Of a DNA stretch of 39,488 bases, positions 192 through 35,279 are shown one piece after another (position 1 is the first letter of the stretch; each line of letters begins with the position of its first letter). The notes under the pieces are model-generated. The model saw only the letters and a list, made by a program, of their open reading frames with translations. It searched no databases and was not told the DNA's origin. The translations under genes and the position numbers were made by a program. This DNA is from Prevotella sp. (GTDB lineage: Bacteria > Bacteroidota > Bacteroidia > Bacteroidales > Bacteroidaceae). The DNA is taken from positions 1-39,488 of the forward strand of contig JAFUVB010000089.1 in assembly GCA_017471245.1 (NCBI GenBank), given 5' to 3'.

Positions 192-302
192 TCAGGTGGC
201 TATGGCGGCGGTGTCCCACCTCTTTCCATTCCGAACAGAGAAGTTAAGCCCGCCATCGCCGATGGTACTGCAATGCAATGCGGGAGAGTAGGCAGCTGCC
301 TT
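192..302 (+). rRNA. rrf: 5S rRNA
   Basis: About 110 nt with the 5S signature around CCGAACAGAGAAGTTAAGCC and closing complementary ends: AGGTGGCT near the 5' end pairs with AGCTGCCT at the 3' end, including G-U pairs. It lies about 155 bp after the 23S end and directly before a strong terminator, so it is the last gene of the rRNA operon. Ends are estimated to within a few bases. Confidence 0.93.
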
Positions 303-311
303 TTTTTGACC

Positions 312-31669: not shown

Positions 31670-34600
31670 TCAATTCTTGTTCATCACTTTCTTGCCGTTC
31701 ACGATAACGATGCCTTTGTAGCTGCTACCCACGCGCTGACCTTGCAGGTTGTACTTTGCAGCAGCCTCTTCCGTTCCGTTTGCCTTTGCTGCCTCGCTGA
31801 TTCCCGTGGTATTTCCATCGCTGAACTCCACGGCAATGCCCTTGCTGCTTGCTGCATAGCTGGCTTCGGACAGAACGAAATAGCCGCGACCGGCACCAAT
31901 CTTTACGCCGTTGTCGCTCACCACCTTTTTCAGTTTTCCGTCTGAGGCATCATAGCAGAAGGCTCCGTTGGGTACATATCCGGCTTCCGCCACGCCGAGG
32001 AACTCGTTGCCGCCTGCAGCTTCCATCTTCACCGGGCGCTCCACCAGCACGTTTTCTGCTGTGATCTGTGCGCCGTTTGGCTTGAGTATGTAGGGCGTGT
32101 TGGCGTTGGTAGTGCCACTGATGGCACTGAACTTGATTCCGTTGCCAGCATCGTTCAGTCCCTTGAAGTCATATACCTTGCCGAATGCCGATGCATCGAA
32201 GGCAAAGGGGAGATACACCGTTGACTTCTGTCCTTCAGTGAACACGCGGCTGTAGCTCACTTTCTCTGCCGTAAACGGTGTGGTGATAATCGTCAGTTCA
32301 TCTTCATCTGTCAGTCGCAGATCCTCGCATGTGCTGTTGCCGTCGGCATCAGTGAGCACGATGTTGTAGGGTTCGTGATAAAGATGATCGTGCATGTCAA
32401 CATAAAAGTCGCTGACAGTTGTTCCCATAGGTAGATAGAGCAAGGATGTCGCAGGGACTTGATATAACACCCACTCCATATCCGTGACATTACTCGTGTT
32501 ATAATTGCTCAAGTCAAGGCTGGTTAGGGAAGAACATTTATAGAACATATAGCTCATAGTCGTGACATTGCTTGTGTTGAAGCTGCTCACATCAAGGCTG
32601 GTTAATGAACGGCAGCTTGAGAACATGCCGAACATATTCGTGACATTGCTCGTGTCGAAGTTGCTCACATCAAGGCTTGTCAGGGAAGTACAGCTTTCGA
32701 ACATTCCGCTTATAGTCGTGACATTGCTCGTGTTGAAATTGCTCACATCAAGGCTTGTCAAGGATGAACAGTCGAGGAACATATACTCCATATCCGTGAC
32801 ATTACTCGTGTTGAAATTGCTCAAATCAAGCCTTGTCAAGGAAGAGCAACCTCTGAACATGCTGTTCATATTCGAGACATTGCTCGTGTTGAAGTTGCTT
32901 ACATCAAGGCTGGTCAAGGAAGAACAGCCACCAAACATGTATTCCATATTCGTTACACTGCTTGTGTCAAAATTGCTTAAGTCAAGATTGGTTATGACAG
33001 TACAATCCCTAAACATCCAATCCATAGTCGTGACATTGCTTGTGTTGAAATTGCTCACATCAAGGCTGGTCAAGGAAGAACATCCAAAGAACATCCAACC
33101 CATACCCGTGACATTGCTTGTGTTGAAGTTGCTCAAGTTGAGGCTGATCAATGATGAGCAGCTTTCGAACATTCCGCTCATAGTCGTGACATTGCTCGTG
33201 TTGAAATTGCTCACATCAAGGCTGGTCAAGGATGAACATCCATGGAACATTCCTTGCATAGTCGTGACATTGCTTGTGTTGAAGCTGCTCACATCAAGGC
33301 TGGTTAAGGAACGGCAGCTTAGGAACATTCCTTGCATAGTCGTGACATTGCTTGTATTGAAGCTGCTCACATCAAGGCTGGTTAAGGAAGAACATCCATA
33401 GAACATTCCAAACATATCTGTGACATTTTCTGTATTGAAGTTGCTCACATCAAGGCTGGTCAAGTTTCGGCAATCCTGGAACATATTGCGCATACCTGTG
33501 GCTTTGCTTGTGTCAAAATGGCTCACATCAAGGCTTGTCAAACTACGGCAAGATATAAACATACCCAGAAAATCTGTAACATTACTCGTGTTAAACCTGC
33601 TGACATCCAGACTTTTTAGGTTCCAACAGCCATTGAACATCCACACCATACCTCTATCCTTTACTTTATCTGTGGTGAATCCGCTGATGTCAAGGTTTTC
33701 CAGATTGTAACACAGGTTGAACATTAATTGCATATCGGTGACGTTTTCCGTGTTGAAGCTGCTTAGGTCAAGATTAGTTATGGCTTTACAATTTCTAAAC
33801 ATCGTTGCCATAGTCGTGACATTGCTTGTATTGAAGTTGCTTACATCAAGGCTTGTCAAGGAAGAACAGCCAACAAACATAGATGCCATATTTGTTACGC
33901 TGCTTGTGTCAAAATTGCTTAAGTCAAGGCTTGTCAAGGAAGAACAGCTACCAAACATGTACCTCATAGTCGTTATATCTCTCGTATCTATGTATTCAAG
34001 CCCTTTGATGGAAGAGAGTTTGCTGCACCCATAAAAGCTTATTTGTATTGGTCGATTGCTTCCTGTTGTCTTATAGAACTCCACTTCCTCTAATGAACTG
34101 CTTACCACGTCGAACATTATTCTTGCCTTAACTGCCGAAGGCAGTACGATTCTCTTTAGGTTGGTACATCCCTTGAATACGGTTAAAAAATCTGCCATGG
34201 TCTTTACTCCGGCAGGAATCACGATTTCCTCCAAGCTGCTGCAGCCTGCAAACTCATATTCGCCGATGTTTGTCAGTGTGCTGGGCAAGGTAATAGATTT
34301 CAAGTTGGTGCACCCCTCGAAGTGATGACCGTTGCCAGTGAAGTCAGCTCCATCGGGAATCACGATGCTTTCCAGCGACGAGCATCCGGCAAAGGCATAT
34401 TCACCGATTGTATAGCGGGTGTCCGTAAAGTGGTGCAACGGCCAGGAGAACGAGATGGATGTAATGTTTGCGCAGCCCCTAAACGCATTGGCACTGATGC
34501 CTACCACATTATGAGTTACCCCCATTTTTTCACTCGCATAGTTGTAATAGGTAACCTGCGTGGGTATTTCAACTGTGTTTGAGCACCATTCTGTCACGCT

Positions 34601-34834
34601 TTCCCACGACAAGTCTGTCGTCACGGCTTTCTTTAGTGCATAGGGAGCCACCATGGCCTGGAAAGCAACAGAATCTTCATTCCATGAAGTAGGGGTGTAC
34701 CAAATTGAGTAATCATGCTTTGATGACATCTCCACCCTAAAGTCTCCAACGGGAGTATCAAATCCTCCCGGTGTCACACTTTGCGTTTGCAAAGCAAATA
34801 CCATAAGCATCAGTAGTAATAGATTCTTTTTCAT
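31670..34834 (-). CDS. BspA-family leucine-rich-repeat surface protein
   Basis: 1054 residues. A signal peptide (about 1-19) is followed by an N-terminal domain with LRR_5 repeats (AFAGCSSLESIVIP type, about 110-280). About 19 copies of a 24-residue DUF285-type repeat follow, consensus MFxGCSSLTSLDVSNFNTSNVT (about 293-750). The C-terminal region of about 280 residues ends in YNLQGQRVGSSYKGIVIVNG and KKVMNKN, a pattern seen at the C-termini of secreted Prevotella proteins and possibly linked to export or anchoring. BspA-like proteins bind fibronectin, fibrinogen or other bacteria. The gene has its own promoter and a ~400-nt structured leader with an internal terminator. Repeat number is prone to change by recombination. 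Confidence 0.93.
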   Translation of the reverse strand: MKKNLLLLMLMVFALQTQSVTPGGFDTPVGDFRVEMSSKHDYSIWYTPTSWNEDSVAFQAMVAPYALKKAVTTDLSWESVTEWCSNTVEIPTQVTYYNYASEKMGVTHNVVGISANAFRGCANITSISFSWPLHHFTDTRYTIGEYAFAGCSSLESIVIPDGADFTGNGHHFEGCTNLKSITLPSTLTNIGEYEFAGCSSLEEIVIPAGVKTMADFLTVFKGCTNLKRIVLPSAVKARIMFDVVSSSLEEVEFYKTTGSNRPIQISFYGCSKLSSIKGLEYIDTRDITTMRYMFGSCSSLTSLDLSNFDTSSVTNMASMFVGCSSLTSLDVSNFNTSNVTTMATMFRNCKAITNLDLSSFNTENVTDMQLMFNLCYNLENLDISGFTTDKVKDRGMVWMFNGCWNLKSLDVSRFNTSNVTDFLGMFISCRSLTSLDVSHFDTSKATGMRNMFQDCRNLTSLDVSNFNTENVTDMFGMFYGCSSLTSLDVSSFNTSNVTTMQGMFLSCRSLTSLDVSSFNTSNVTTMQGMFHGCSSLTSLDVSNFNTSNVTTMSGMFESCSSLISLNLSNFNTSNVTGMGWMFFGCSSLTSLDVSNFNTSNVTTMDWMFRDCTVITNLDLSNFDTSSVTNMEYMFGGCSSLTSLDVSNFNTSNVSNMNSMFRGCSSLTRLDLSNFNTSNVTDMEYMFLDCSSLTSLDVSNFNTSNVTTISGMFESCTSLTSLDVSNFDTSNVTNMFGMFSSCRSLTSLDVSSFNTSNVTTMSYMFYKCSSLTSLDLSNYNTSNVTDMEWVLYQVPATSLLYLPMGTTVSDFYVDMHDHLYHEPYNIVLTDADGNSTCEDLRLTDEDELTIITTPFTAEKVSYSRVFTEGQKSTVYLPFAFDASAFGKVYDFKGLNDAGNGIKFSAISGTTNANTPYILKPNGAQITAENVLVERPVKMEAAGGNEFLGVAEAGYVPNGAFCYDASDGKLKKVVSDNGVKIGAGRGYFVLSEASYAASSKGIAVEFSDGNTTGISEAAKANGTEEAAAKYNLQGQRVGSSYKGIVIVNGKKVMNKN
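32590..33958. repeat. 72-bp coding tandem repeats of BspA-like gene
   Basis: About 19 copies of a 72-bp unit, very similar at DNA level (recurring GACATTGCTCGTGTTGAA and CACATCAAGGCT blocks on the plus strand), encode the 24-residue repeats. The similarity also keeps a spurious 279-codon frame open on the opposite strand. Confidence 0.93.
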
Positions 34835-35242
34835 GCTTTGTTTCGTTTTTTAGTTTTGCCTTGGCAACCCCTGCAAAGCGTGAATGAATTTGATGTTATT
34901 ATCGGTTGGCATGATACATGAAAAAAGCGCGGGTTGCTGTATCCTGTTACTCGTCCCGCGTTTCGGGCGTCTCGCATTGCCCATCTTGCCAAGGAGGAGC
35001 AACGCAGAAGCCCACGCTGATATGTATATATAACCACATACCGTCTGCCTCCATAATGAAAACAGACACGATAAGGGCTGTATAAAACATACCCATGAAC
35101 ATCTATCGCTGCTTTGCTTTCCGGCAAGATCTGGAGTTTGCGAGACTTCGAAACGCCAAAGAACAAAGCGTCAGATAAACGCCTGATCATATAAAATGCG
35201 TCCCTTACCCTCCGCTTCTACAAGAGCAGCTTAGGGCTGAGA
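34835..35242 (-). promoter_or_regulatory. Attenuator-like leader of BspA-like gene
   Basis: About 408 nt lie between the predicted transcription start and the ATG. An intrinsic terminator (CGCGGG 34955-34960 with 34928-34933, then six T at 34921-34926) sits about 85 nt before the gene. An upstream segment (35139-35156) is complementary to 34958-34976 in blocks of 8 and 7 bp. That pairing would take three bases of the terminator stem, so it could act as antiterminator. A further 9-bp pairing joins 34986-34994 with 34859-34867 near the start codon. A 119-codon frame through this region is not a convincing gene. Confidence 0.65.
34921..34960 (-). terminator. Terminator inside BspA leader
   Basis: Read on the minus strand: 6-7-bp GC-only stem, 21-nt loop, then six T. 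Placement inside a leader suggests conditional termination. Confidence 0.75.
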
Positions 35243-35247
35243 CGTTG

Positions 35248-35279
35248 CAAATTTACGAAAAAAGAGTCAAAGCTCCAAA
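35248..35279 (-). promoter_or_regulatory. Promoter of BspA-like gene
   Basis: On the minus strand TTTG (35279 to 35276), 20 bp, TAAATTTG (35255 to 35248): both perfect. Start of transcription near 35242. Confidence 0.8.

Follow-up and report, generated by a model that had tools for sequence, protein, structure and literature searches.

The leader that precedes a gene for a BspA-like protein in a Prevotella sp. contig is very probably a cis-acting transcription attenuator built from four competing RNA strands, a reading that draws on sequence comparison and predicted pairing and to which a probability of roughly 0.8 is assigned. This leader, which lies in the window (here, the whole 39,488-nt stretch of DNA that was analysed), is one member of a widespread class of leader RNAs that, judged on the same comparative grounds, is real and that is apparently undescribed as far as Rfam 15 and open-licence papers extend. 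An initial annotation of the window had proposed that mutually exclusive helices attenuate transcription of a surface adhesin gene. Its observation is partly confirmed and its interpretation partly supported, with the idea of an attenuator holding and widening to a family of elements, each a switch of approximately 280 nt (Table 1).

Table 1. Features of the leader and its downstream gene, with positions in the window and the basis of each assignment.
Feature	Position	Strand	Basis
Promoter, TTTG-N20-TAAATTTG	35248..35279	(-)	sequence; TAnnTTTG conserved upstream in homologs
5' leader hairpin, sequence-variable	35200..35243	(-)	MFE fold of the window leader
Strand 0, comprising local hairpin H1 (35184-35166) and the 5' strand of H2; partner, strand 1	35155..35184	(-)	covariation
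5' strands of H4 and H5, within the loop of hairpin 0:1; the blocking strand of the initial annotation	35139..35157	(-)	covariation
5' strand of H3	35123..35131	(-)	covariation
Strand 1; partner, strand 0 or strand 2	35087..35113	(-)	duplex energy, pairing of H6/H7
Strand 2, with GCGUGGGCUUCUGCGUUGCUC core; partner, strand 1 (antiterminator) or strand 3 (terminator)	34993..35025	(-)	duplex energy, pairing, co-evolution
3' strands of H3 (34990-34980) and of H5 and H4 (34976-34958), within the loop that joins strand 2 to strand 3	34958..34990	(-)	covariation
Strand 3; alternatively, the local hairpin named in the initial annotation	34927..34959	(-)	covariation
U-tract adjoining strand 3 (predicted intrinsic terminator)	34921..34926	(-)	sequence; T-rich in alignment A4
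Post-terminator hairpin with GGGG in its loop, before the start codon	34858..34879	(-)	recurs in homologs
BspA-like protein gene, 1054 aa, taken as the regulated gene	31670..34834	(-)	ORF; family name follows the initial annotation

The leader, its promoter, and its distribution

The promoter boxes comprise TTTG at 35279-35276 and TAAATTTG at 35255-35248, separated by a 20-nt spacer, a combination of the Bacteroidetes type, and transcription would be expected to start near 35243. This promoter, absent from the output of a generic sigma-70 scan, had been pointed out in the initial annotation, and it recurs in the family: of 152 homologs, 142 have TAnnTTTG in the 190 nt that precede the element, versus 8.7% of shuffles, and 96 of these 142 have TTG in the -33 window. 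The leader (34835-35243, (-) strand) extends for about 409 nt up to the ATG at 34834, in agreement with the 400 nt or so first given for it, and its MFE is -145.7 kcal/mol (z of -5.8 versus dinucleotide shuffles). Past the terminator, a stem of at least 5 pairs around GGG was detected in 109 of 158 homologs versus 14% of shuffles. An ORF of 119 aa at 34831-35190 was rejected as a gene based on a count over the family, in which ORFs of at least 30 codons with an early ATG were present in 31 of 158 copies versus 44 of 158 shuffles. The expectation that no Rfam family would fit was borne out, with neither the window leader nor 31 homologous loci matching any of the 4227 families of Rfam 15 at gathering score and with nothing returned for the window leader up to an E-value of 5. 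The sole Rfam match in the window is a 5S rRNA gene at 192-304 (+).

A BLAST search with the leader identified further copies in its own genome, preceding genes whose translations suggest an MBOAT protein in one case and a LytTR regulator in another, and matches in 15 of 60 genomes, its own included. A covariance model of the 3' core only (R1), for which 23 of the 26 copies extracted were used and which matches its own training copies by construction, has matches in 307 of 398 genomes of the genus (128 of 175 among good-quality genomes) and in 62 of 295 genomes and 38 of 184 genera of the order, the own genome being included in the genus and order counts. In a draw of 296 genomes from the phylum, the own genome alone had a match at E ≤1e-5, the rows listed being of the same family or class. 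The copy numbers per genome are lower bounds because at most 9 candidates per genome were scored in the genus census and at most 12 in the order census. Among the matches listed, carriers include Phocaeicola oris, Hallella mizrahii, Xylanibacter rodentium, Paraprevotella xylaniphila, Bacteroides acidifaciens, and Prevotella lacticifex. At E ≤1e-3, there are 16 matches in Bacteroides sp. GM023 (many of them weak and of a divergent subtype), 9 each in X. rodentium, P. xylaniphila, and P. lacticifex, 8 in the own genome (of 62 matches), 7 in B. acidifaciens, and 2 each in H. mizrahii and P. oris. A single contig of one genome (G026, contig C39; L019, L026, L027, and L029) carries at least three copies, two of them approximately 2.3 kb apart, with different genes behind them. 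In another genome (G022; L013 and L313), a gene whose product begins MSQNKTV is preceded by a shortened copy that retains the promoter and the strand 3 hairpin but is missing the core; a leader without the switch may therefore exist.

Two mutually exclusive folds and a predicted terminator

Strands 0 and 1 can pair to form hairpin I and strands 2 and 3 to form hairpin II, or strand 1 can pair with strand 2. The 0:1 helix (GGCGUUUAUC:GAUAGAUGCC) is paired in 91.0% of cells, with changes on both sides in 6 of 10 pairs, and H2 is paired in 88.4% of cells, with both-side changes in 8 of 9 pairs. The strand 1:2 helices, H6 and H7, are paired in 99.4% and 93.5% of cells, respectively, and their changes are mostly one-sided (both-side changes in 0 of 5 and 2 of 7 pairs). 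The two strand 2:3 helices, which in the window join 35017-35011 to 34933-34927 and 35003-34997 to 34952-34946, are paired in 98.7% and 98.3% of cells and have both-side changes in 3 of 7 and 5 of 9 pairs, in few cells each. The loops of the two hairpins are complementary to one another through H3, H4, and H5. Here, H4 and H5 are paired in 97.5% and 98.7% of cells with both-side changes in 13 of 14 pairs, and H3, which pairs 34990-34983 with 35130-35123, has such changes in 6 of 6 pairs (84.9% of cells paired for five pairs and 76.7% for one). That strand 0 resembles strand 2 and that hairpin I resembles hairpin II would be consistent with an origin by tandem duplication of one hairpin.

MI was calculated from 158 of 181 elements (effective number 130), with partial, low-scoring, N-bearing, and near-duplicate elements left out. 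The pairs of H4 and H5 rank top (z up to 46), followed by H3 and a small apical stem in the H2 loop; lower values (z about 4-9) were obtained for H2, for a contact that the H1 loop makes with strand 1, and for a hairpin within strand 3. The pairing of 35139-35156 with 34958-34976, initially read as a means of blocking the terminator, is real and is identical with H4/H5, the strongest covariation in the family. A 9-bp helix between 34986-34994 and 34859-34867, close to the start codon, fared differently: it is present in the window, but at least 8 Watson-Crick pairs can form in only 1 of 158 homologs, the window itself (swapped control, 0.4%). It was rejected as a chance pairing, and most of 34986-34994 belongs to the conserved H3. 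The MI list also includes column pairs that do not base pair (e.g., 76:220 and 35:111), which were taken as subfamily effects, and the pairings of strand 2 are unranked because that strand is too conserved.

Both folds were evaluated on alignment A4, a structure-free MAFFT alignment of 100 of 109 elements past an identity filter. The fold that combines 1:2 with H3-H5 is paired in 93.2% of cells (79.5% shuffled) and has both-side changes in 27 of 44 pairs, amounting to 679 cells versus 218 shuffled and at most 129 slid; the signal comes mostly from H3-H5, given that H6 and H7 vary mainly on one side. The fold that combines 2:3 with H2, H1, and the H1 loop contact is paired in 93.9% of cells (91.5% shuffled), with 132 both-side-change cells versus 58 shuffled and at most 54 slid. 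In a version with the extended 0:1 helix, 93.3% of cells are paired (90.8% shuffled), and both-side-change cells number 151 versus 72 shuffled and at most 66 slid. The two folds exclude one another because strand 1 is common to 0:1 and 1:2 and strand 2 is common to 1:2 and 2:3. Further, on geometric grounds, the 31-nt loop under the 9-bp H2 could hardly hold the approximately 20 pairs that H3-H5 make to a distant strand. The initial annotation had staked its attenuator of mutually exclusive helices on conservation or covariation of the paired blocks in related genomes, and on this point the family decides in its favour, with both folds outperforming shuffled and slid controls.

Strand 2 is near-invariant in typical copies. 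Double changes that bear on either of its pairings are therefore few, and the swap test has little power in these copies, with own and swapped partners giving -22.3 and -21.4, respectively, for 5':core and -30.2 and -29.4 for core:3'. The 11 divergent, Bacteroides-type copies are more informative, near-identical cores in 4 of them included. In these copies, the own 1:2 duplex gives -34.7 kcal/mol versus -22.9 kcal/mol swapped and the own 2:3 duplex -34.0 versus -23.1 kcal/mol, the own partner beating every swap in 8 and 7 of the 11 copies, respectively; for 0:1, the values are -21.9 and -16.6 kcal/mol, and the own partner beats every swap in 3 of 11 only. The divergent copies were initially compared by eye, and over all 20 copies of that comparison the own partner beats every swap in 13 (1:2) and 9 (2:3). 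By this measure, the 1:2 and 2:3 pairings co-evolve in the divergent Bacteroides copies. As isolated duplexes in the window, the two are of nearly equal stability (1:2, -29.0 kcal/mol; 2:3, -27.4 kcal/mol). Once H3-H5 are added in, a pseudoknot-free approximation puts the antiterminator fold below the other in energy in 156 of 158 copies, with a mean difference of 12.6 kcal/mol.

The terminator had been placed at 34921-34960 (-), where a terminator-like hairpin followed by U6 is indeed present and covaries in homologs (columns 232:258, with UA 90 and CG 31, and 235:255). This local hairpin, which has two base positions in common with H4, is absent from the results of a scan for consensus terminators because its loop is longer than the scan permits. 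The sole terminator-like site in that scan is H1 (35184-35166), at chance level (1 found, 1.0 expected). The strand 2:3 hairpin abuts the U-tract exactly and persists in the divergent copies, in which the local hairpin is not evident by eye, and for these reasons the 2:3 hairpin, the better conserved of the two, is taken as the more likely terminator. The 2:3 helices are paired in 98% of cells and adjoin the U-tract, so that in silico a terminator lies inside the leader, as an attenuator calls for. It should be noted that the 2:3 loop, of approximately 40 nt, is unusual for intrinsic terminators. The local hairpin, which also covaries, could be the terminator, and the roles of the folds would then shift.

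Under the attenuator model, two states would compete. In the first, hairpin I would form and be followed by hairpin II running straight into the U-tract, and transcription would terminate approximately 320 nt into the leader. In the second, strand 1 would pair with strand 2 and this helix would be lengthened by pairing of loop I with loop II (H3, H5, and H4), giving one long hairpin that would withhold strand 2 from strand 3 and allow RNA polymerase to continue into the gene. Termination and readthrough presumably both occur, and a signal would tip the balance between them, most likely by making hairpin I more stable or by unravelling it. Because the pseudoknot-free model has the antiterminator fold as its ground state, the analysis leans toward a switch that would be on unless the signal holds hairpin I.

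Downstream genes and alternative explanations

Downstream ORFs were picked by a simple script for the 165 of 178 elements with enough flank. Of the 165 copies, 133 have the next ORF starting on the same strand within 120 nt downstream, at a distance of 50-80 nt in 94 of these, and a longer antisense ORF is present in 3. A promoter and an untranslated leader directly before a same-strand gene is the arrangement anticipated for an attenuator. A Pfam scan of the first 150 of the 165 downstream proteins, trimmed to 330 aa, matched 91 families, of which 25 were listed, among them LRR_5 (14), T9SS sorting tail (6), AbiH (5), BACON_2 (5), BACON (4), DUF2971 (4), and FHA, SrfB, NusG, and LytTR (3 each). 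The first 330 aa of the BspA-like protein were among the sequences scanned, and the 14 LRR_5 matches are a count without itemised members. PADLOC matched 59 models, none of them in more than 5 of the 150 proteins. Proteins resembling AbiH, picked by their start sequence, follow the element at L010, L031, L038, L056, and L093. By a crude, heuristic signal-peptide rule, exported-looking proteins are enriched behind the element over neighbouring ORFs (68 of 132 downstream versus 118 of 381 other ORFs at loci of at least 5 kb; Fisher p of 4e-5). This diversity of families is at odds with the adhesin-specific control envisaged at first, and on its strength a riboswitch for a single pathway was rejected.

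For two of the genes behind the element, orthologs were sought in 150 genomes per gene. The element is present at 2 of 7 ortholog loci of the first gene, one of them partial and identical with L013, and at 2 of 4 of the second, both already in the census (L008 and L047). At ortholog loci outside the census, it is present in 1 of 6 and 0 of 2, one of the six having less than 260 nt of upstream sequence. That orthologs are often without the element weighs against the attenuator reading and also points to a regulon with fast turnover.

Among alternative explanations, a metabolite or second-messenger riboswitch is a special case of the attenuator in which hairpin I and the conserved H2 loop would form a candidate aptamer and the remainder an expression platform. 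Second-messenger riboswitches are known in several copies per genome, and the occurrence of the element in several copies per genome before unrelated genes, together with near-invariant bases in its 5' domain, makes this refinement a serious, if minority, possibility. Against it, the Bacteroides copies show compensated drift in strand 2 and over much of hairpin I, which leaves few sequence-fixed positions for a ligand pocket.

It is less likely that a NusG paralog, acting as an antitermination factor like UpxY or LoaP, recognises the leader and lets polymerase past the terminator, sometimes heading the operon itself. In 15 element-rich genomes, 18 NusG matches were judged by reading to be other than housekeeping, and 7 of them stand immediately behind the element (an eighth is marginal); in 8 genomes, the element lies upstream of 6 of 30 NusG-family loci (a seventh is marginal), with the earliest possible start codon inside the element at 3 of these 6 by a simple ORF call. 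Over both surveys there are 11 distinct NusG loci with the element, two of which recur by identical coordinates, and their translations, as read rather than searched by family, indicate that the paralogs head exopolysaccharide or PP2C/kinase (kinase/phosphatase) operons. UpxY is reported to keep transcription from ending prematurely in the leaders that precede upxY (PMC7819879). The presence of a paralog, however, does not track that of the element. Fifteen genomes that lack the element have 25 NusG matches versus 30 in as many element-rich ones, and a second NusG-like match turned up in all 8 element-lacking genomes that were searched more closely. Three genomes with 7-9 element matches have a paralog in two pieces (G068), weak ones only (G095), or none (G416, 91% complete). 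The element was found at neither of the 2 loci fetched of 11 paralog matches from element-lacking genomes, Bacteroides upxY-type genes have no element match in the flank fetched, and NusG accounts for 3 of 150 downstream proteins. A NusG paralog as a universal trans-factor was consequently rejected, and the paralog is better viewed as a target, perhaps a local partner, of the element.

The NusG paralogs directly behind the element (L256-L260, L263, L264, L294-L296, and L311), several of which head long operons, read as proteins of about 230-300 aa, most with an N-terminal extension that bears a recurring GVS segment. The UpxY-type paralogs of two Bacteroides genomes (L290, L291, L297, L298, L304, and L310), with no element match in the fetched flank, have a common start segment, approximately GTGEGVAHSKRW or a variant. 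Paralog frames look interrupted at G068 C1:1350066-1350604 (two pieces) and at G000 C77:21054-21608 (one stop); the two genomes have 7-8 matches to the element.

The remaining explanations are improbable to varying degrees. The promoter and terminator-like 3' end would suit a free-standing small RNA that ends at the U-tract and acts in trans with its neighbour gene incidental, yet the tight same-strand spacing to the next ORF and the recurring hairpin past the terminator make this improbable. A palindromic, MITE-like mobile element that carries a promoter by chance would account for the many dispersed copies and the complementary element ends (P1), but is highly improbable given compensatory evolution in two folds, the spacing to start codons, a best own-genome copy that is 73% identical over approximately 220 nt rather than near-identical, and the lack of any blastn match among phage or plasmid records, which also led to the rejection of a phage or plasmid origin. 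Equally remote is ribosome-mediated attenuation through a leader peptide, which the four-strand layout brings to mind, since the first 90 nt are without an ATG in 60 of 158 copies versus 30 of 158 shuffles, early-ATG ORFs are no commoner than in shuffles (counts above), and no conserved leader peptide emerged when ORF presence and length were compared (n=158).

For the four-strand attenuator, the very different genes behind its copies suggest a signal that is probably global, such as a small second messenger or an RNA-binding or elongation protein, and not the output of a single pathway. A broader proposal, held tentatively at a little under even odds, is that the element represents a new class of RNA switch that responds to a signal, spans the order Bacteroidales, and has its own global regulon of adhesins, lipoproteins, abortive-infection-like genes, and NusG-paralog operons. 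The two states would be two hairpins with complementary loops and one merged hairpin, kissing of the loops would nucleate the switch, and terminated leaders might pair with other leaders in trans. Bacteroidales dominate the gut, and few of their cis-regulatory RNAs are known to have been characterised; if the element works as proposed, a large regulon of surface and defence-like genes is defined and the signal becomes accessible to direct tests.

Comparison with known regulatory RNAs

Attenuators of the trp type have leaders with four competing strands, and the arrangement here is the same: 0:1 and a 2:3 terminator compete with a 1:2 antiterminator, and a U-tract follows the last strand. The element differs in that no conserved leader peptide was found in it, in that the loops of its hairpins are complementary (H3-H5) and lengthen the antiterminator, and in that it forms a multi-copy family before unrelated genes. 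Riboswitches for c-di-GMP and c-di-AMP likewise occur in several copies per genome before varied genes that include those for surface proteins, whereas the element is larger and many of its bases are free to change in pairs.

Other structured RNAs of Bacteroidales include Bacteroidales-1 (RF01693), Bacteroid-trp (RF01692), and further Bacteroidetes motifs in Rfam, yet the element matches no Rfam family. Searches of the open-licence PMC literature gave no paper recognisable as describing this RNA. The HMP2 candidates (PMC8040213) and the Bacteroides-2 and GUCCY-hairpin candidates (PMC2864571) also come from Bacteroidetes and could include pieces of the element, so that overlap with these candidate lists is possible; the passages on these candidates do not describe a two-fold switch. 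Leaders dependent on UpxY or LoaP share with the element an intrinsic terminator in a long leader, and some copies of the element precede a NusG paralog. LoaP is reported to require a small leader hairpin (PMC12691694), and UpxY to act on the leaders that precede upxY (PMC7819879). The element differs in that it has an adjacent paralog in 3 of 150 copies and is a 280-nt switch, not a single hairpin.
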